Of a DNA stretch of 64,000 nucleotides, positions 17,945 through 28,337 are shown one piece after another. How positions within the stretch are numbered: position 1 is the first letter of the stretch; every line of letters starts with the position of its first letter. The notes under the pieces are model-generated. The model saw only the letters and a list, made by a program, of their open reading frames with translations, searched no databases and had not been told where the DNA came from. The DNA comes from Radicibacter daui (GTDB lineage Bacteria; Pseudomonadota; Alphaproteobacteria; Radicibacterales; Radicibacteraceae), in NCBI GenBank assembly GCA_030657355.1, contig CP131056.1, positions 2,748,501-2,812,500 of the forward strand, in the 5' to 3' direction. Both the position numbers and the translations under genes were made by a program.

Positions 17945-20900
17945 TCAGTCTTTCGGGGTGGCGGTCATGGTCGCGGGCGTGTCACGGCCGAACCGGGTCG
18001 GGGCGAACATGTCCTCCACATAACTGCCAGCCCAGCTGAAGCTGCCGGGCGTCACAACTCGGGCGACATAGGCGAGCTTGAAACGGGCGGCGTCATCGCT
18101 CCAGTGCGGGCGGCTGTCCAGTTCCAGCGCGGCGACATAGCGGTCATCGCGCAGTTCCAGATGGTCGGGGCTCGATAGCTCGCCAAGCCAGCCAAAGCGC
18201 CCTTCCCCCTCACCGTCGCTATCGCCCTGCACCAGCGCGGCATTCTCCAGCTCCAGCCCGGCCGGCAGGTAGTCGACGATCAGCGTCTGGGCGAGCCTGT
18301 CCGCGGCCTCCAGCGTACCTTCGATCACCACTACCACGGCGTCGCCCTGATGCAGCGCATCGGGCGAAAGCGCGTTGCCGTCACGGTCATAGACCGAGCG
18401 ATGGACGGAATAACCTTCCTGCCGCGCGGGCGCGATGCCGGCGGGCACGCCGGACAAGGAGATGAAGCCATCGGCCGTGCTGTCACCGGCATTGCGCAGC
18501 GCCGGCAGCTTTGCCGCCTCCTCAGCGCCCGAGGCGGAAGCGAGATAGACTTTCCCGGCCTCAAGGCTCTGCTGCTGGTCGCCCACGGCCAGCTTCAGCT
18601 GGCCGGCCGGCGCCTGCCGCAAGGCCCGGGCGGCGCGCAGCACCCAGGCTTCCTCCTGCGTGGAGAGCCAGCGTTCATGCTGCACATCGGCGGAAAGGCG
18701 CTTTGCCGTGCCGATCACCTGCGGCCACTCCACCACGCCGCTTTCAGCCATCAGCGTCAGGATGGCGGCCCTATCGCGCAAGGCGCTGGCGTAGTTGAAG
18801 GACTGCCAGTAGTTGCCCCCGAGATCCTGCTCTCCGGCAAGGACCGCTGACATCGCCTTCGCAGCTTCGGTGCGGTTGCCGGTCTGCGCCAGCGCGGCGC
18901 CGACCATGGCCTTTGACAGCGCATCGGGCAGTTTGTCGAAATTCGTCAGATAGAAACGACGCACCCGCGCGCCATCGGCAAGCCCGCTACGGGCGAGCAC
19001 ATACTGGGCATAGGCCGCCGTCGAGAGTGACTGGTCGTCCGTATCCTCATCCGCTGCCCGGCGCTTCAGGAAATTTGCCGTCCGATCCAGCATGCCCGGC
19101 GGCAGTTTGACGCCGTCCGGTTTCGCTGCGTTTACCTGATAGAGAAAATCGCTGACATAGACGGATATCCAGGGCGAACCGCTCCAGTCATTGCTCCATT
19201 GGCCAAATTCGCCATCGCCCAGCTGGTAAGTGGCAAGCCGGTCGAGCGCCTGCTGCAGGCCTGCCGGGTCCGGCCGGTGCAGGCCGTTGGTGAAATAGTC
19301 CTTGAAGCTCTCCGTCATCAGCAGAGGAAAACCGGTGCTGGTCGTCTGCTCCGAGCAGCCATAGGGGTACGCCGCAAGGCTCGCGAGGATGGCCGGCACA
19401 CCAAGGTCAGGCAGCGGATTGGCGCCAAGGCTGACCTTGAGCGTGGAGGGGTAAAAGCGCTTGAGGAGGGCCGGATCGAGCGCCAGCGTCTCGCCCGGCT
19501 TCAGCTCGGAGATATAACGCTCGCTTTCCACCCCGTTGCCGGAGCGCACATCGAGCGGCCAATGGCGGGTCTGGCTGAAGCCGCCGGGGCCGGTGACGGC
19601 CAGCGTCACCTCCCCCTCGCCCACCCCGGCGATGGCGGCAACGGTAAAGCCGGCCCTGGCGTGCTGGCCGGGGGCCAGCGTCAGATGTTGCTCGGCTGCT
19701 CCTTGCAGCAGAACGGCACCGCTGGTGGAAAGGGTCGCCACATAATCCCCCTCCGGGGCCTGCAGGTTGTTCATCGACAAGGTCAGGTCCGCCTTGTCGC
19801 CGGGCGCCAGGAACAGTGGCATTGCAAGGTCCGCCACCAGCGGGCGGCGCACCAGCAGCGTGCGGTCGGCATGGCCGAAATGCGCGCCCTTTTGCCAGGC
19901 CATGACCATCAGGCGCAGGCGGCCGTCAAATTCCGGCACCTCGAACGGCACCACGGCCTTGCCGCCCTTGACCTCAACCACACCGCTGACGAGCGAGACC
20001 ACAGGGCGGCCCTTGCGCGGCAGGTTGGAAAGCTGGCCGGAATCGGTGAATCCAGCACCGTCGCCGCCGGAGCGGAATTCCCCGGCCTCGGCACGCGAAG
20101 CATCGATAAAGTCGCTGTAATTATCGGACAGGCTGACGCCCAGCGCCCGCTGGCCGAGATACCACGCGAACGGATCCGGCGCCTTATAGCCGGTAAGCCC
20201 CAGCACCCCGTCATCGACTGCGGCGAGCGTGACCCAGGCCGGTCCGTCAGCGAGGTTGGAAAGAGAGATTTCCGTCTCAAGTCTGGTGCCCGGCTCCATG
20301 CTGTCCGGTGCCGCCAGCGCTACCTCCAGCCGGTTGGCCTGATCATCAAGCGGCACCCAGAGCACACCCACGGCACGCGCCGGCACATAACCCGGCCGCT
20401 GCGAGGGGGCGGCAAAAGCATTGGCAAGCACATAGAGGCCGCCCACCGCATCGGCCGGCATCGGCAGTTCGACATCCGTGCCATCCGGCGAGACGTCGAC
20501 GCTCAGATGCGAGCGCACGGAAGCACCGGCTACCACCAGATCGGCAACGCCGGTAAAAGGCGCCGTTACATGCAGCCGGGCCTTGCCGCCGGCGGAAACG
20601 CTGCCCGGGGCCAGCGTGAGGTCCACCTTGTCCGGGCGCTCATCCTCATCCGCCCCGGCAATCTCCCCCCAGCCGCCCCAGAAGCGGGTGCTGGAGACAA
20701 GGCCGGTTGCCGGATCAGTCACCTCAAGGCGAAAGCTGCCCCAGCCCTTGAACTCGGCATCAATGCGCGCGGGCTGCTGGCCATCATAATCAAGCGTGCC
20801 CTGCGCAACCGTCTCGCGGTCGTAATAGACGGTCTTGTAGCGCCAACGGTAACCCTGATCGTACCAGACATAATCCACATCCTCCCGCACCAGCCGCCAG

Positions 20901-23140
20901 TCGAGGCCGCTGCGGACGACGGGCGTACCGGCGGCATCCTTGACGACGACGTCAAACCGCGCCGGCGCGTCATCATCCAGATGGCTGGCCGAGGCGAGCG
21001 GACGGATGCCGATATCGAAAGCATTGTTGGCGATGGCGACGATGCGCCGGCGCTCCACCGGGCGCCCGCCCTCCTCCATCACACTGGCGGTAATGACGGC
21101 TTCCAGCGGGTAGGAAGTGTCGGGCATTTCAGAGAGAGAAAGATCAAGCGACGCCTTGCCATCGTCCCCGGTGGTGAAGGAGGTCACTTCCTGCCGCACG
21201 GATTCCGGCGCCGTTTCCTGCACCAGACCGTACTGGTAACCGTCATCCTCCTTCGCCGGACCGCGGTGGGCCGCGACGCGAATGTAACTGTCCACCTCGC
21301 CATCAAGACCGGCAGCGGGCGCACCATAGAGATAATCCGCCCCGATAGTGAGGCCGAGCGGCGCATCCGGCGTGGCGGCGGCGCTGGCCACATCAAGTTT
21401 GGTCTCGATCTGCGGCGGCTGGAAATCCTGCACCTGGAAATCGACACGGCCCGTGGAAACCTTGCCATCACCAACAAAAGCAAGTGCCGCCCAGGTGCCG
21501 GGGGAAGCGCTTGGCGGGATCGTTACCTCACCGGTGTAACTGCCGCCTCCCTCATCTTTCAGGGCAAGGCGCCAGACCTGCTGGTCATCCGGGCGGCGCA
21601 CGGAAAGGGCAACCGGCAGGCCGCCGGTATCGCCCGCCTTGCCGTCGCGCAGCAACAGGGTGAAATGCACCGTCTCACCCGGCCGGTAGATGCCGCGCTC
21701 GCTGGTCACGTAAGCATCGAGCGGACCTGGCGCCGGCCGGCCACTCACACCGCGGTCGGAAAGCTCGATCAGCCCGTCCGACAGGTCAAACAGGGTGAAA
21801 TCCCCTTCCGGCCCCCAGGCATAAAGCAGGCCCGGCGTATTCTCCTTCGTGCCGCGCAGGAAACCGGCGCCGATATGGGCAAGGCCGTCCTCCCCGCTTT
21901 CTACTTTGGTCAGCACATCGCCGCCGCGTGCCATGAGCTGGAACTTGATGCCGGAGAGCGGTCTGGTGCTGGCGGCGGAGCGGGAGATGACTGTCAGCCC
22001 GCCTTCTCCCTGATAGAGACTGAGGCCGATGTCGGAGATGGTGAACCAGTGAAAGACCGAGCCGGGCCGCCCTTCGAAACGGGCGTCCGCGCCATCGGTC
22101 GGCGTCGGCTCCAGCGCCAGCAGATAGGCCCCCGGCGGCAGATCGCCTGCCGCCTTGGCGAGCGGCAGCGCGGTCGTGACCGTCTGATCCTTGCGGGCTG
22201 CCGGCATCAACTCGCCCTTCCACAGCAGCTTGCCGGCCTGCGCGGCAAGCCGGCCGAAGCGGGCATAACTGCCATCCTCCTCCAGCGGGTGGGCACCGAG
22301 ATAGCGGATGAGATCCTCCGGCTTCAGTTGCAGCAGGGCGACGCTCACCTTGTCGATATTGACCGTCTCCACCGGGAAGGCGGCATCGCCGCTTCTGGGC
22401 AGCACATGGCCACTGCTGGCAACGCGCAGACGCTGCGGCCGGGCGCCGATGCTGACCTTTGCCTCATAGGGTGATTTGAGCACCGCCCCCACGCCCGGCA
22501 GGCCGGCGGCGAGGTGGAGTGTGTAGTCGGTGGAATGCTCGAAACCATCAAGGCACAGGCTGCTGCGCTCCACCCGCCACCCGAACTTGACCGCGGGCTC
22601 GGTGGTGACAAAGGCGCCGATCCCCGCCTTGTGGGCCTGATCGAGCGGGGCATCGAAGTCGAGGCAGACTTCAGCCACCGACTGGTCCGATTTCACCTGC
22701 GGGTCAGCAACCACGGACATGCCGGGAGTTGAAAAATCAGTCAGCGCGGCAAGGCGCTGCCGGTAGGCATCGGCAAGGCAGGTTTCGGCCTGATGCCGGC
22801 GGGTGAGATTACCAAGCTCACCTTCCGGCAGGGCGCAATCCTTGTTGCGGGCGCTCAGCCAGCGCTTCTGCGCCTCGGCAATCTGCGTCCAGCCTGCGGC
22901 GGGCTGGCTTTCCTTCAGCGAGCCATAAAGCCGGGCCAGCTCGTCATCCTGCCGGGCAAGATCCGTATCCTCACAGATCAGGGTTTCCAGCGGGTTCAGC
23001 CTGCCGGAACAGTCAAAGCTGGGTTTGATGGTCTGCCCCTCGCCGCTTTGCGGCTGGGTTGCTGCGGCGGCCGGGAGGCCCGTCAGGGCCCACATCGACA
23101 AGGCCAGGATCGCGAATGGACGTGATGCGGCGCGCAGCAT
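17945..23140 (-). CDS. Bacterial alpha-2-macroglobulin with N-terminal LprI-like domain
   Basis: A 1731-residue protein. A signal peptide (1-27, ending AAA) is followed by an LprI/DUF1311-like domain (about 43-133, with C44, C56, C102, C121) and then the MG and alpha-2-macroglobulin domains. The thioester motif C-S-E-Q (Cys1262-Gln1265, in 'YPYGCSEQTTS') is intact, so it should trap proteases covalently. The signal peptide has no lipobox Cys, unlike the E. coli lipoprotein form, so it is probably soluble in the periplasm. The start at 23140 gives a good signal peptide; the open frame extends further. Coupled to pbpC. Confidence 0.95.
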   Translation of the reverse strand: MLRAASRPFAILALSMWALTGLPAAAATQPQSGEGQTIKPSFDCSGRLNPLETLICEDTDLARQDDELARLYGSLKESQPAAGWTQIAEAQKRWLSARNKDCALPEGELGNLTRRHQAETCLADAYRQRLAALTDFSTPGMSVVADPQVKSDQSVAEVCLDFDAPLDQAHKAGIGAFVTTEPAVKFGWRVERSSLCLDGFEHSTDYTLHLAAGLPGVGAVLKSPYEAKVSIGARPQRLRVASSGHVLPRSGDAAFPVETVNIDKVSVALLQLKPEDLIRYLGAHPLEEDGSYARFGRLAAQAGKLLWKGELMPAARKDQTVTTALPLAKAAGDLPPGAYLLALEPTPTDGADARFEGRPGSVFHWFTISDIGLSLYQGEGGLTVISRSAASTRPLSGIKFQLMARGGDVLTKVESGEDGLAHIGAGFLRGTKENTPGLLYAWGPEGDFTLFDLSDGLIELSDRGVSGRPAPGPLDAYVTSERGIYRPGETVHFTLLLRDGKAGDTGGLPVALSVRRPDDQQVWRLALKDEGGGSYTGEVTIPPSASPGTWAALAFVGDGKVSTGRVDFQVQDFQPPQIETKLDVASAAATPDAPLGLTIGADYLYGAPAAGLDGEVDSYIRVAAHRGPAKEDDGYQYGLVQETAPESVRQEVTSFTTGDDGKASLDLSLSEMPDTSYPLEAVITASVMEEGGRPVERRRIVAIANNAFDIGIRPLASASHLDDDAPARFDVVVKDAAGTPVVRSGLDWRLVREDVDYVWYDQGYRWRYKTVYYDRETVAQGTLDYDGQQPARIDAEFKGWGSFRLEVTDPATGLVSSTRFWGGWGEIAGADEDERPDKVDLTLAPGSVSAGGKARLHVTAPFTGVADLVVAGASVRSHLSVDVSPDGTDVELPMPADAVGGLYVLANAFAAPSQRPGYVPARAVGVLWVPLDDQANRLEVALAAPDSMEPGTRLETEISLSNLADGPAWVTLAAVDDGVLGLTGYKAPDPFAWYLGQRALGVSLSDNYSDFIDASRAEAGEFRSGGDGAGFTDSGQLSNLPRKGRPVVSLVSGVVEVKGGKAVVPFEVPEFDGRLRLMVMAWQKGAHFGHADRTLLVRRPLVADLAMPLFLAPGDKADLTLSMNNLQAPEGDYVATLSTSGAVLLQGAAEQHLTLAPGQHARAGFTVAAIAGVGEGEVTLAVTGPGGFSQTRHWPLDVRSGNGVESERYISELKPGETLALDPALLKRFYPSTLKVSLGANPLPDLGVPAILASLAAYPYGCSEQTTSTGFPLLMTESFKDYFTNGLHRPDPAGLQQALDRLATYQLGDGEFGQWSNDWSGSPWISVYVSDFLYQVNAAKPDGVKLPPGMLDRTANFLKRRAADEDTDDQSLSTAAYAQYVLARSGLADGARVRRFYLTNFDKLPDALSKAMVGAALAQTGNRTEAAKAMSAVLAGEQDLGGNYWQSFNYASALRDRAAILTLMAESGVVEWPQVIGTAKRLSADVQHERWLSTQEEAWVLRAARALRQAPAGQLKLAVGDQQQSLEAGKVYLASASGAEEAAKLPALRNAGDSTADGFISLSGVPAGIAPARQEGYSVHRSVYDRDGNALSPDALHQGDAVVVVIEGTLEAADRLAQTLIVDYLPAGLELENAALVQGDSDGEGEGRFGWLGELSSPDHLELRDDRYVAALELDSRPHWSDDAARFKLAYVARVVTPGSFSWAGSYVEDMFAPTRFGRDTPATMTATPKD

Positions 23141-23292
23141 GCTCTTTCCCCCCAAAGAAGCCGGAAAGGCAGGATGACCTGCCTTCCTCGTTCTTATGAT
23201 GACGGAATAGAGCCCGAATTCTAGCAACAACCCAAGCGGGAATCTGGTTTGGTTGCCAATCACATACGGATGGATGTTTCCGGCAATCGGCG

Positions 23293-24573
23293 TCACCAGG
23301 CCGGCAAAAGCTCGCGCTGCGTAACACCGGCAACAAGGTCCCCCAGATCACCGGCGGCAGGGCTGAAGGTACGGCGCATGCGCTCCGGCGAGGGGTCCAG
23401 CTTCCATTTGCGATAGCCGCGCATCAGCGAGAGCAGCCGCTCTTCCAGAAACACACCATCAAGGCTGCGGGAAAGCGGCATGGAGTAGTCCGTCAGCAGC
23501 CAGGAAAGCGCACCCGCCATCGGCGGCGGTTGCCGGTCGGGCTGCTCCAGCATATCGCCCACGCTGGTCCAGGTGGCGTAAGTCGCGAGATGACTGTTGC
23601 CCAGAGCCAGCAGGGGGATGCCGTGCAGGGCCGCCTGCACCCCGACGGAGGAACTGACGCTGGCGATGATATCCACCAGCGGCACCAGCGACTGCCCGGT
23701 GAGGCCCATGAGCGCGGTGTCTGCAAAAATAACGTTCGGATAATATTTGCTGACCAGATGGCGGGTATGGGCATCGACAGCCTCCCCCACCAGTTTGGAG
23801 ATTTCATGCTCGGTGACGATCACCGCCCATTCCGGCGGAATGCGTTCGATGAAATCCCAGAAGAAGGCACCCTGATGGGCAAAGCCGCTATGCTGCGTCC
23901 AGCCGAAATGGCCGCTGAACTGCAAGGGCAGCAGGATGAGTTTCTGCCAGCGCTCGCGCAGCGCCGTGACCTTGCGGCCGGCACGGGAAGCCGGTGACAT
24001 CTGCCGCCGCCAGCCCAGCGTCATATCCTCAAGCCAGCCATCCTCCGCCCCGCCCGGCCACAGGCCAAGCCGTGCCGGGGCAGAGCTGCCATACATGCCC
24101 CAGGGATCGAGAAAGAAGAGGAAGGGGTAAGGCGCGCGCGTCACCGGCCCGCCTTCGGCATGCAGCACCACCGAGCCGGGATAGAGCCTGTGCCACAGCG
24201 CGGCACTGGGCGAATTGGTCAGCACAAGGTCAAAATGCCCGGGCGGCAGCAAGGCCCTGTAGACCTCGGCCATCGCATCGACCACCGCCGTATTGCCGTC
24301 TGCCAGTGCCTTCAGCGCCCCGGCCGGGCCCAAACCGGTGGCATCCGCCAGCAGGGCGCCGGGCATGACGGTTACCTGCGAGACCGGCAGGCGCTGGCGG
24401 GTGGAAGCCCGGTCCGCCATCGCCAGATTGGCAACAAGATGAAAGCTGGTGAATTGCGGCACACCGCGCGCCGTCACCTGGCCGGCGATGCGCAGCAGCA
24501 TGTCCTGCCAGAACCACAGATGGTGGGCATGGCCGCACAGCACCATCGGCTCGGAATGGACGAGGATGCGCAT
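23293..24573 (-). CDS. Capsule-type glycosyltransferase-like protein
   Basis: A 426-residue cytoplasmic protein with no signal peptide. Its C-terminal part holds 'VDIIASVSSSVGVQAALHGIP' (given in part) and 'LLALGNSH', which resembles the nucleotide-binding half of GT-B enzymes of the capsule-synthesis type (KpsC/KpsS-like 'SSVGxEALxxGxP'), which use CMP-activated ulosonic acids. The N-terminal half is not recognisable by eye. It starts 30 bases after the fusion gene, in one operon with it. The specific linkage and donor are unknown, and the family assignment is tentative. Confidence 0.55.
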   Translation of the reverse strand: MRILVHSEPMVLCGHAHHLWFWQDMLLRIAGQVTARGVPQFTSFHLVANLAMADRASTRQRLPVSQVTVMPGALLADATGLGPAGALKALADGNTAVVDAMAEVYRALLPPGHFDLVLTNSPSAALWHRLYPGSVVLHAEGGPVTRAPYPFLFFLDPWGMYGSSAPARLGLWPGGAEDGWLEDMTLGWRRQMSPASRAGRKVTALRERWQKLILLPLQFSGHFGWTQHSGFAHQGAFFWDFIERIPPEWAVIVTEHEISKLVGEAVDAHTRHLVSKYYPNVIFADTALMGLTGQSLVPLVDIIASVSSSVGVQAALHGIPLLALGNSHLATYATWTSVGDMLEQPDRQPPPMAGALSWLLTDYSMPLSRSLDGVFLEERLLSLMRGYRKWKLDPSPERMRRTFSPAAGDLGDLVAGVTQRELLPAW

Positions 24574-24603: not shown

Positions 24604-25917
24604 CTAGAACTCGCCCTGGCGCGAGAGGATGCTATCCGTCTCGATGCCAAGGGCGATATCGCAGGCAATGGCGCGCTCGCGCCGGGCGTTTTCCAGCGCC
24701 ATGTCGAGCACGCGCTCTTCCAGATAACGCGGGATGACGACAACACCGTCACCATCGGCGAATATAAGATCGCCGGGGCGCACCATCACGCCGCCGATGA
24801 GGATGCGGCGGTTGAAATGCTCCACGGTCGCCCGGCGGCGCACATCGGCGCAGTTATTGCCGCGGGCAAAGACGGGCAGCTCCAGCCGGGCGACATCGGC
24901 GCTGTCGCGCGTCATGCCGTCAATGATCGCACCCACGGCGCCGCAGCGGCGGGCAAGGCGGGCATTCAGCTCGCCGAAATAGGCAAATCCCGGCATGCCG
25001 TTTTCGACCACCACCACATCGCCGGGCACAATGCCGCGATAGGTCTCCAGCGCATCATAGATGCCGCGATAATCCTCCCCGGCTTCCAGCGCACGCAGTT
25101 TCAGCGTCTTGGCACGGCCAAAGAAGCGGGCGCCGGAAATATTGGGCCGGAGGCCATGCACCACCCCGTCATGCCCGAGATCGTCGAGAATGTCGGAGAG
25201 CATGGGGCTGGAAAGCACCTCCCTGATGGTGGCAAGGCGCAGCTGTTCCTTCTCGCGCTGACCGGCGGCCACCAGCTCGGCAAGGGCAAAATCCTCCGGC
25301 TGGTTGATGTCGATATTCTCCATCGGCCCGGCTTCCAGCAGCACCGGATTGCGGCCATAACGCTTACCGGTATCGAGCGCCGCATCCCGCCGCATGGCGT
25401 AGAAGGACATGGCCTCGATGACAGTTGCCGGCAGATCGACACTGTTGGGCACGCGGCCTTCGCCATAGGCCGGCCGGCCATTTTCCCAGCGGTATTGTTT
25501 TTCGCGCCGGGTCAGCAGCACGGAATCCACCTCCGGCCGCTCGGTCAGGATATCGATGGCCTTGCGGATGGTGGCGGGCGCCACGAAGGGGGCGGTGCAG
25601 AGCACCTGCAGGCAGATGTCGGCATCGATATGCTTTACCTCATTGAGGAAAAGCTCGTGCCCGTCGGTGGCGTTGGTGGCGAGCGCCGGGTCGCGGCGCA
25701 GGCGCTGCACCGGCAATTCGGCCGCCAGTTGCCAGAGTTCCTCACTCTCCGTATCGAGCACCACCAGATCGATGGCGTCTATGGCGCACAGCTTTTCCAG
25801 CGTGTGCAGGATGAGCGGCTTGCCATCGAGCAGGCTGACATTCTTGTTCCAGATCCGCTCGCTGGTGCCCTTGGCGGGGACGAAGGCGACAACTCTCATA
25901 CCTTGAGACCTCTTCAC
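24604..25917 (-). CDS. Cytidylyltransferase-RraA-like aldolase fusion protein
   Basis: A 437-residue two-domain protein. Residues about 1-235 are an acylneuraminate/KDO cytidylyltransferase: 'VVAFVPAKGTSERIWNKNV' matches the CTP-binding loop, with later 'LQVLCTAPFV' and 'IDINQPEDF'. Residues about 245-437 are RraA-like: 'GAVGAIIDGMTRD' carries the Arg-Asp of the HMG/CHA class II aldolases, and 'PGDLIFADGDGVVVIP' is a family hallmark. An aldolase making an alpha-keto acid sugar joined to the enzyme that activates such acids is a plausible logic, but unproven. The frame overlaps the HAD gene by four bases (coupling). Confidence 0.8.
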   Translation of the reverse strand: MKRSQGMRVVAFVPAKGTSERIWNKNVSLLDGKPLILHTLEKLCAIDAIDLVVLDTESEELWQLAAELPVQRLRRDPALATNATDGHELFLNEVKHIDADICLQVLCTAPFVAPATIRKAIDILTERPEVDSVLLTRREKQYRWENGRPAYGEGRVPNSVDLPATVIEAMSFYAMRRDAALDTGKRYGRNPVLLEAGPMENIDINQPEDFALAELVAAGQREKEQLRLATIREVLSSPMLSDILDDLGHDGVVHGLRPNISGARFFGRAKTLKLRALEAGEDYRGIYDALETYRGIVPGDVVVVENGMPGFAYFGELNARLARRCGAVGAIIDGMTRDSADVARLELPVFARGNNCADVRRRATVEHFNRRILIGGVMVRPGDLIFADGDGVVVIPRYLEERVLDMALENARRERAIACDIALGIETDSILSRQGEF

Positions 25918-28337
25918 GCGTAGGCGTCCTTGCCTTTCCTGGCAGGTTCGCTCGCCGCTGCCTCACGCGGAGGCAGGCAGGCAAAAGTAAGGGTGAGCAC
26001 GGCGGTATCTTCCCCCGCCGGCACGGGCAGCAGCAGATGCGCCTCCGGCCCGAGGCAGCGGAAAACGCCGCCGGCGATGTCGAGGCCGAGGCCGCGCATC
26101 AGCGAAAGATCGATAAGGCGCGGCGGTGCCTTCATGGCGGCCCCGGCGCCGGGGCCGCTCTGGAAAGCCAGCGAGCGCACAAACCCGCCGCTGGCGATAT
26201 CGCCGAGCAGCAGCGCCGCCACATCGCCGCGATAACGCGCCGAAACCGGCAGGCGGGCGCGATAGTCCCCGCTGGCAAGGCGCACGAGCGGCACGGAGAT
26301 CTGCGCCCCCTCCTGTCCGCGAAAGAGCGTGGCCATCATGTCGCCCACCACCTCTTCGCCTACCGCCATTTCGCCGCCGGCGCCATGGCTCCAGAGCAGG
26401 TAGGGATAAGCCAGCTGCGGATCGGCAACGGCGAGGCTTGCAGCCAGCCACATCGGCGGTTCCGTGGCGGTGAAGAGTGCGGATTGCTGATGCACGGCGC
26501 CTAGGGCGGCAATCGCCGCCCCGTCTACCAGCGACACGTGCCCGACGGTGCCAAGATTGATGTCATGGTCGAGCCGGGAGAAGGCCTCCACCTCCTGCGG
26601 CAGCGGCCAGAGCAGGAAACGGGCAAGCGTGACAGCCGCGGCGCGGGTTGCGGTGTCGAGATTGGCAAAGGGGTCAAGGCCCGCCGCCCGCTGCGCCGCC
26701 GCCAGCTGGCTGAAGGAAAGTGCGCCTTCATGGGCACGCAGCATCAGGCGCAGCTGGTGGGAGGATCGTACCTCCACCTCTCGCACCGGCTCGCCGCCGC
26801 GATATTCGCGCACGGAGCCGACCGGTTCGCTCATCAGCTGTTCCAGCACCGCCACGTTGCGCAGCAGGCAACGCTTGAGCGATGGCAGGACGACACGATC
26901 ATCAATCAGACCGCCCGCAGTATCACCCGGCGCCAGTTCCTGCAAATCCTCGTCCGAGGGCAGCAGGTAGACGCCATGCAGCCGGGTGGAGATGCCTTCC
27001 AGATCCAGCACTTCCCGCAGGCTTTTCTGCACCGTGCCGGTATAGCCGATATCGACCAGCATCAGGTCGCCGCAGTCGGCAAAATCCGCAATGCGGTTTT
27101 CCAGATGCAGCACAATCTGCCGGCGCACGAGGGCGGCGGAAGCGGAAAGGTCGCGGTTTCCGAGCAGGCTCGGCAGGGCTTCGGCCAGCTCCGCGGCATC
27201 GGCAACGCCGTCCGGGCAGGCCGAAAAATACGCCTCCAGCGCCGGGCTGCGCAGGCCGAGAAAACTCTCCAACCCTGGCAGCATCACCCGGTCAAGCCGG
27301 CTGAGGAAACTGGCGATCCGGCCGACATCGGCCGAAGCGCCAATCAGCGTCACCCGGCGGTTGAGATCGACATAGGCCGCCTCCGGCATCCCCTCCGCGC
27401 GCCACAGGCGGTAGGGCAAAAATCCGTCCCGCGCCAGAAAGGCGATGCGGGCCTTGGGATTGCGTGCCCGGAGCGCGGCAAACCGGCGGGAGACGTCGTA
27501 GATGAAGGTGGTGAGCACGGGGCCCAGCACACTCGCGCCCACGGCATGGAACGGATCGTCAAAGGCCTCATCATGGCTGGCGATACGGCGCAGAATCTCC
27601 ATGCCGCCATCCACCAGCGCGGCATCCCCGCCATTCGGGGCAAGGCGCGTCATCCGCACCTCGCGCTCGCGCAGGCTCTGGTGCAGCGGCGCCCCTTGCG
27701 GAAAATGCACCGCACGGATGCCCAGCTTTTCCGCCGCTGCCACATCGGCACCGGGATTGTCGCCCCAATGCATCCAGCTGCCGGCATCGGCAATCGCCAT
27801 GTCAGCCTTAACCCGGCGAAACAGACCGCCGGCCTTGGAGGCGCGGTGATCGCTGGAGGCATAAATGAAATCGAAGGTGAGGCCGGGACATTTGGCAACC
27901 AGCAGCCGCGCCAGCAGCCCGTTGCCCCAATAGGTATCCGACAGCACGCCGATGCTGGCGCCCGCCGCCTTGCAGCTTCCGGCAATCGCCAGCATGTCCG
28001 TGTTGGCAAAACAGAGCGCCATCTCGGCTGCAAACTCCGCCTCGACCAGTTCGCCGCGTTTTTCCTCTCCCCAGCCGAAACGGCCGACGGGAAAAGCGGC
28101 ATAGATTTCATGAATGGTGGCTTCAAGGCCCGGCACCGCCTTGCGGGCGGTGAATTCGGCAATGCGGCGATACTGGCAGAAAAGCCGGGGGTCGACGCCG
28201 AGGATGCCGGCCGTGGCGGCATAAACCCCGTCGGGGCTCGACACCTTGCGGTAAAGCAGCGTGTCGAACACATCGAAGGACACGATCCCCACGTGCCCCT
28301 GGCCGATAGCGCCTTCCAGACCAGACAAGTCGCTCAT
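25914..28337 (-). CDS. COG5610-type HAD superfamily protein, large
   Basis: An 807-residue protein. The first ~200 residues are HAD-like with the nucleophile motif D-V-F-D-T ('VSFDVFDTLLYR', D22 and D25); 'GVLSDTYWGN' (motif II Ser/Thr) and 'HWGDNPGADV' (motif IV) are also visible. The remaining ~600 residues are not recognisable, with 'FLARDGFLPYRLW' and 'LVDIGYTGTVQKSLRE' suggesting a further COG5610-like region. COG5610 proteins are common in surface-polysaccharide clusters. Translationally coupled to the fusion gene. Confidence 0.75.
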   Translation of the reverse strand: MSDLSGLEGAIGQGHVGIVSFDVFDTLLYRKVSSPDGVYAATAGILGVDPRLFCQYRRIAEFTARKAVPGLEATIHEIYAAFPVGRFGWGEEKRGELVEAEFAAEMALCFANTDMLAIAGSCKAAGASIGVLSDTYWGNGLLARLLVAKCPGLTFDFIYASSDHRASKAGGLFRRVKADMAIADAGSWMHWGDNPGADVAAAEKLGIRAVHFPQGAPLHQSLREREVRMTRLAPNGGDAALVDGGMEILRRIASHDEAFDDPFHAVGASVLGPVLTTFIYDVSRRFAALRARNPKARIAFLARDGFLPYRLWRAEGMPEAAYVDLNRRVTLIGASADVGRIASFLSRLDRVMLPGLESFLGLRSPALEAYFSACPDGVADAAELAEALPSLLGNRDLSASAALVRRQIVLHLENRIADFADCGDLMLVDIGYTGTVQKSLREVLDLEGISTRLHGVYLLPSDEDLQELAPGDTAGGLIDDRVVLPSLKRCLLRNVAVLEQLMSEPVGSVREYRGGEPVREVEVRSSHQLRLMLRAHEGALSFSQLAAAQRAAGLDPFANLDTATRAAAVTLARFLLWPLPQEVEAFSRLDHDINLGTVGHVSLVDGAAIAALGAVHQQSALFTATEPPMWLAASLAVADPQLAYPYLLWSHGAGGEMAVGEEVVGDMMATLFRGQEGAQISVPLVRLASGDYRARLPVSARYRGDVAALLLGDIASGGFVRSLAFQSGPGAGAAMKAPPRLIDLSLMRGLGLDIAGGVFRCLGPEAHLLLPVPAGEDTAVLTLTFACLPPREAAASEPARKGKDAYA

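Follow-up and report, generated by a model that had tools for sequence, protein, structure and literature searches.

The window, a stretch of 64,000 nucleotides of the Radicibacter daui genome, carries on its minus strand a gene that joins a cytidylyltransferase to an RraA-like domain (Table 1). The first-pass annotation had placed such a fusion in the open reading frame at 24604-25917, and this was borne out by Pfam, which assigns residues 11-132 to CTP_transf_3 (E 3.7e-15) and residues 241-394 to the RraA-like family (E 1.4e-29) in one frame. ATG 25899 is the likely start, because the homologue alignments begin at Met7 and an AAGAGG stretch lies upstream of it. The fusion gene is closely packed with the genes on either side, and an alpha-2-macroglobulin gene and pbpC lie further downstream. 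The upstream HAD-like protein has a weak match to the capsule polymerase Bcs3 (query residues 40-211, E 3e-4), and no convincing relative of the 426-aa downstream protein was found in the PDB. As well, the alpha-2-macroglobulin gene (17945-23296, minus strand, 1783 aa), whose product carries an LprI lysozyme-inhibitor domain near the N-terminus (E 5.5e-8), sits between the capsule-like genes and pbpC.

Table 1. Features of the fusion gene, its surroundings and related viral and bacterial loci (window positions unless a locus is named)
Feature	Position	Strand	Remarks
Fusion gene	24604..25899	-	431 aa from the likely ATG; 437 aa if GTG 25917 is used
AAGAGG, Shine-Dalgarno-like	25909..25914	-	9 nt upstream of ATG 25899; inspection of sequence
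NeuA-like cytidylyltransferase domain, residues 7-222	25252..25899	-	PF02348 E 3.7e-15; Foldseek 9t4z TMt 0.85
CTP-binding loop AFVPAKGTSERIWNKN	25840..25887	-	P14, K16, S19, R21, K25, N26 invariant in 58/58 non-redundant fusions
Metal-site motif D203-x-N205	25303..25311	-	D203 58/58; N205 56/58, Asp in the remaining 2/58
RraA / HMG-CHA-aldolase-like domain, residues 228-437	24607..25236	-	PF03737 E 1.4e-29; Foldseek 3k4i TMt 0.83-0.87, 3noj TMt 0.71
Arg337-Asp338, equivalent to Arg123-Asp124 of HMG/CHA aldolase (3NOJ)	24904..24909	-	HMMER alignment; 58/58
Glu414, aligned with Glu199 of 3NOJ	24676..24678	-	HMMER alignment; invariant 58/58
HAD-like protein, 807 aa, upstream gene, same probable operon	25914..28337	-	TIGR02252 E 1.3e-4, below cut-off
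Downstream gene, 426 aa, possibly capsule/Kdo-transferase-like, same probable operon	23293..24573	-	PF05159 Capsule_synth E 0.011, sub-threshold only
Split transferase/RraA/NeuB-like row	L133:10001-12169	+	Also in L136 and L137
CTP_transf_3 + HMGL-like fusion	L083:2167-3939	-	Related transferase
CTP_transf_3 + HMGL-like fusion, domain order opposite to L083	L133:8277-9998	+	Related transferase

The window protein was modelled by AlphaFold2 with 58 sequences as two well-folded domains (mean pLDDT 94.7, pTM 0.88), and Foldseek returned separate sets of PDB matches for the N- and C-terminal halves, none of the best 50 covering both. The gene is present in a single copy in its genome, and its G+C and third-position G+C resemble those of the neighbouring genes. 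Chance or an assembly error is excluded, since the same fusion occurs in dozens of unrelated genomes, with both halves covered at 45-60% identity.

The N-terminal half belongs to the CMP-ulosonate synthetase superfamily, scoring 56.8 bits against PF02348 (curated cut-off 22.6), and falls short of the KdsB equivalog TIGR00466 (19.4 bits, cut-off 155.2) and the PseF equivalog TIGR03584 (57 bits, cut-off 205.7). Its structural matches were CMP-Kdn, CMP-Neu5Ac and CMP-Pse synthetases, followed by KdsB. The D203-x-N205 motif is a departure from classical NeuA, where its counterpart is Asp-x-Asp, the two metal-binding aspartates.

The C-terminal half exceeds the curated cut-off of the RraA-like superfamily PF03737 (103.8 against 24.5 bits), and its Foldseek matches were PSPTO_3204, HMG/CHA aldolase and RraAS2, so that the identities proposed beforehand for both halves agree with Pfam and with the fold matches. 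The Arg-Asp pair that the first-pass annotation had recognised is kept in all 58 non-redundant members, and the alignment of aldolase residues that it had suggested as a check found the equivalents of Arg123, Asp124 and Glu199, which belong to the pyruvate and metal site, all present. Invariant across the 58 fusions are D242, T271, F314, G315, N318, R337, D338, D358, D388, E414 and F437. D124, D102 and E199 of the HMG/CHA aldolase presumably have metal-binding roles, and the D102 position is E or D in 52 of the 58 fusions. This enzyme is a class II pyruvate aldolase and is crippled by substitution of R123 (PMC5065237). However, the phosphate (activation) site of 3NOJ is altered in the fusion, with G144-T145 replaced by D358-V359 and K147 by R362 (Arg in 40/58), while Asn71 of that site falls outside the aligned segment; the chemistry may therefore differ from that of HMG/CHA aldolase, whose equivalog TIGR02798 gave 72.9 bits against a cut-off of 304.5. 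The usual RraA role, named beforehand as the contrary case, was rejected, because the RNase-E-regulator models NF006875 (45 versus 136 bits) and TIGR02998 (15.5 versus 241.25 bits) both failed.

Samples of 385 genomes of the class and 398 of the phylum each contained just one further full-length fusion, and a dedicated scan was thus needed. A profile scan of GTDB species genomes, in which loci were located by two short peptide patterns and the best 80 of 90 relatives were kept, gave 79 distinct loci with mechanical gene calls, and the frequencies derived from it are consequently not unbiased. Nearly all of the 79 listed loci span both domains, at 45-60% identity. The hosts include Acidobacteriota, Bacillota (Gracilibacillus, Cohnella, Lachnospiraceae), Bacteroidota, Alpha- and Gammaproteobacteria, Solidesulfovibrio, Gastranaerophilales, Helicobacter, Marinimicrobia and others, and plasmid and isolate-phage collections yielded no full-length fusion. 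In one locus (L032/L093) the gene stops at residue 386 without the conserved C-terminal end, and may be a pseudogene or a sequencing error. In quick trees the fused RraA domains formed one clade (SH-aLRT 100), as did the fused transferase domains (SH-aLRT 100), with similar inner groupings in both; the lone exception, L111, appears as a stand-alone transferase solely because its contig ends there. With supported clades for each domain, the trees are most simply explained by one ancient fusion event, and the fusion probably arose only once. We found no paper on the fusion in the open-access literature, where "undescribed" means not found there, and the earlier statement that no characterised example is known thus agrees with our search. 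The two-domain fusion is a real, old and previously unremarked family, present in many bacterial phyla and in uncultivated T4-like phages.

The viral members come from IMG/VR, in which 28 loci were found, 21 of them fused, on contigs of up to 256 kb. Several of the fused contigs are T4-like, with UvsX, UvsY, single-strand-binding protein and terminase genes. No match to the phage form was found among isolate phages, and PHROGs contained neither the phage fusion nor the split pair. T4-like contigs with the fusion include L131, L124 and L127. In many of the viral loci, genes for an HldE-like nucleotidyltransferase and other sugar functions lie close to those for UvsX and the ssDNA-binding protein. 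In three viral lineages (L133, L136 and L137) the two parts are separate proteins: first comes a transferase of 222-239 aa, next an RraA protein (PF03737 E 5e-13 and 1e-18 for the two examined), and after them a NeuB-like gene; the transferase-RraA pairing thus exists without fusion. Moreover, related transferases are fused to HMGL-like domains in two loci. A further class of pyruvate aldolases, exemplified by DmpG, has the HMGL fold. The RraA pairings and the HMGL-like fusions together suggest that CMP-ulosonate synthetases have been coupled more than once to enzymes acting on C-C bonds.

Genes of Kdo synthesis recur beside the fusion. By hmmsearch, the operon partners at the 79 listed genome-contig loci comprise KpsF/KdsD at 32, KdsA at 15 and KdsC at 9; at least two of the three are present at 14 loci and all three at 8, and the independent events are fewer than these counts, as some loci are close relatives (Photobacterium, Sphingomonadales). 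The Pfam tally of 122 neighbours (SIS+CBS 20, DAHP_synth_1 13, MptE-like 12) agrees. An MptE-like/DUF115 gene adjoins 15 of the 21 viral fusions and occurs in 20 of the bacterial operons, and is absent from the window. Profile comparison relates it to the sialyltransferases CstII/CstI (E 7e-6 to 2.5e-4), and all 16 Foldseek matches of its model (pLDDT 89) with E below 0.001 are GT42, which makes it GT42-like in sequence and predicted fold. GT42 enzymes use CMP-sialic acid, itself a CMP-ulosonic acid. The link to ulosonic acids suggested by the first-pass annotation is therefore upheld by the KdsA, KpsF/KdsD, KdsC and GT42-like neighbours. A pathway for sialic, legionaminic or pseudaminic acid is disfavoured for the fused form, as no recurring NeuB cluster stands beside it.

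Kdo-8-phosphate synthase (KdsA, TIGR01362) scored over its cut-off in 25 of 25 and 24 of 26 genomes with the fusion, 49 of 51 in all; of the two exceptions, one (G1067) has a partial match over 165 profile positions, which brings the count to 50 of 51, and the other (G1079), a genome of 1.3 Mb, gave no match. KdsA is expected in most Gram-negatives, so that the informative parts are the Bacillota and the operon adjacency. In Bacillota, KdsA is present in 9 of 9 genomes with the fusion versus 21 of 297 sampled without it (Fisher p 2e-10, with relatedness ignored). Standard KdsB exceeded its cut-off in 13 of 25 and 19 of 26 genomes (32/51); none was found over the cut-off in seven of the nine Bacillota genomes with the fusion (G745-G748, G755, G1068 and G1069), and it is also missing in several Sphingomonas with the fusion. 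The fusion is the obvious candidate for the CMP-Kdo-type synthetase of these KdsB-less Bacillota and Sphingomonas. Monoderms with Kdo genes have a precedent in Bacillus coahuilensis, for which a Kdo gene island including KdsB was reported (PMC4744853). In the genome of the window, KdsA lies far from the fusion and one KdsB is over the cut-off; a second KdsB-like gene (G000:C1:2289509-2290219, 121 bits) is below the family cut-off.

Since KdsA is found in 50 of 51 genomes with the fusion, and in the same operon at 15 loci, and would already make the ulosonic acid, we infer that the sugar activated is Kdo or closely related to it and that the RraA domain, more likely a modifier than a builder, acts on this 2-oxo-3-deoxy acid. 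The fusion is tentatively read as a Kdo-type CMP-ulosonate synthetase whose RraA domain may alter this 3-deoxy-2-oxo acid before its capture by CMP, a proposal that we put at somewhat less than an even chance. According to this proposal, KdsD/KpsF, KdsA and KdsC would supply the ulosonic acid from arabinose-5-phosphate and PEP, the metal-dependent RraA domain, with its HMG/CHA-aldolase fold, would bind the open-chain 2-oxo-3-deoxy acid and change it, the NeuA-fold domain would trap the changed acid as a CMP sugar, and the CMP sugar would then go to a transferase of its own, in many cases a GT42-type one.

As for the change itself, our guess is an isomerisation at C4, which might proceed through opening and re-forming of the C3-C4 bond or through loss and re-addition of the 4-hydroxyl. 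The RraA domain would then be a C4-epimerase, by which Kdo from the cell pool is epimerised and locked as a new CMP sugar; we regard this as possible, though on balance unlikely. It would explain why Gram-negatives keep the fusion beside ordinary KdsB, and why phages carry the fusion and a GT42-like transferase without a synthase of their own. C4 epimerisation is the most specific guess, and the evidence is equally compatible with other reactions; no paper on 4-epi-Kdo and nothing relevant on Kdo epimers was found in the open-access literature. A set of dedicated genes does not by itself imply a new sugar, because capsule loci duplicate Kdo genes for ordinary CMP-Kdo (KpsF/KpsU). It also counts against the proposal as a whole that the fusion has no adjoining kds gene at most loci, and none in the window.

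The RraA domain might instead be an anomerase or ring-opening helper, which would supply the usable form of Kdo with its configuration unchanged and leave ordinary CMP-Kdo as the product. A metal-bound site for a 2-oxo acid would fit, and the metalloprotein YhcH, which opens the ring of Neu5Ac (PMC8141875), offers a precedent; however, YhcH belongs to another family (DUF386), and the conserved class II aldolase residues would seem to exceed what ring opening needs, so that we consider this rather unlikely.

The first-pass annotation had proposed that the fusion could make and activate an unusual ulosonic acid; on this model the RraA domain would condense pyruvate (or oxaloacetate) with an aldehyde, and the first domain would activate the product. 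The conservation of the aldolase residues (58/58), the HMGL-like fusions of related cytidylyltransferases and the lack of an adjoining kds gene at most loci, the window included, speak for it. Nevertheless, the PEP-dependent Kdo-8-phosphate synthase would already make the acid in nearly all genomes with the fusion, including Bacillota, where it is rare, and the split viral version is followed by a NeuB synthase gene. The making of the acid by the aldolase half was thus not borne out, and we now think it distinctly unlikely, though less so for loci that lack kds neighbours.

A domain that is non-catalytic here, serving as an oligomerisation or regulatory module of a plain CMP-Kdo synthetase, was also considered. 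RraA proteins are ring-forming, and C-terminal domains of an accessory or structural kind occur in other CMP-sialate synthetases (animal CMAS, E. coli NeuA). The classical RraA acts as a regulator by binding to protein (PMC5065237). In contrast, R337, D338, E414, D358 and D388 are invariant among fusions of 42-60% overall identity, as strictly as the CTP-binding loop, and would be needless in a scaffold, which makes a structural role quite improbable. Finally, a degrading or proofreading domain, which would split excess or incorrect ulosonic acid into pyruvate and an aldose, matches the known retro-aldol reaction of HMG/CHA aldolase (PMC5065237), but a synthetase that drained its own supply would be wasteful unless the selectivity were strict, and we regard this role as highly improbable.

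With the fusion there seems to be a second way of making CMP-Kdo-type sugars, one that includes monoderm Bacillota without KdsB, in which Kdo would not be expected. If the RraA domain does edit the sugar before activation, as we tentatively prefer, this would be new surface-sugar chemistry, one branch of the poorly understood RraA superfamily would gain a biological role, and the gene could serve as a marker for a polysaccharide component that has gone unrecognised.

Compared with known systems, the N-terminal fold and CTP-binding loop of the fusion are like those of NeuA-type CMP-nonulosonate synthetases (TMt 0.75-0.85), such as the PpNeuA CMP-Kdn synthetase (9t4z), murine CMAS (1qwj) and the Aeromonas CMP-Pse synthetase (9ftb). 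It differs from them in its low identity (about 20-24%), in D-x-N for D-x-D, in the extra RraA domain and in having Kdo genes rather than NeuB as neighbours. With the CMP-Kdo synthetase KdsB (TIGR00466; 1h7e, 2y6p) it has in common the superfamily fold (TMt 0.64-0.68) and, likely, the reaction and the position in the pathway, whereas it co-occurs with true KdsB in 32 of the 51 genomes. The C-terminal half shares its fold, the Arg-Asp pair and the Glu199 equivalent with HMG/CHA aldolase/oxaloacetate decarboxylase (3noj, TIGR02798), from which it differs by the replaced phosphate-site residues and by its attachment to a CMP-sugar synthetase; its best match in sequence and fold, the uncharacterised RraA-like PSPTO_3204 (3k4i), is itself stand-alone. 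FlDet, a KDGR dehydratase/decarboxylase of the RraA family, acts on the 2-keto-3-deoxy sugar acid KDGR (PMC8563752) and is, at the level of the family, a precedent for what is proposed for the fusion; FlDet is catabolic and stand-alone. Similarly, a cytidylyltransferase in a Vibrio nonulosonate cluster is joined to an aldo-keto reductase domain (PMC7371886) and likewise couples a CMP-sugar synthetase to a second enzyme domain, although its transferase is SpsF-like and its second domain is unrelated.
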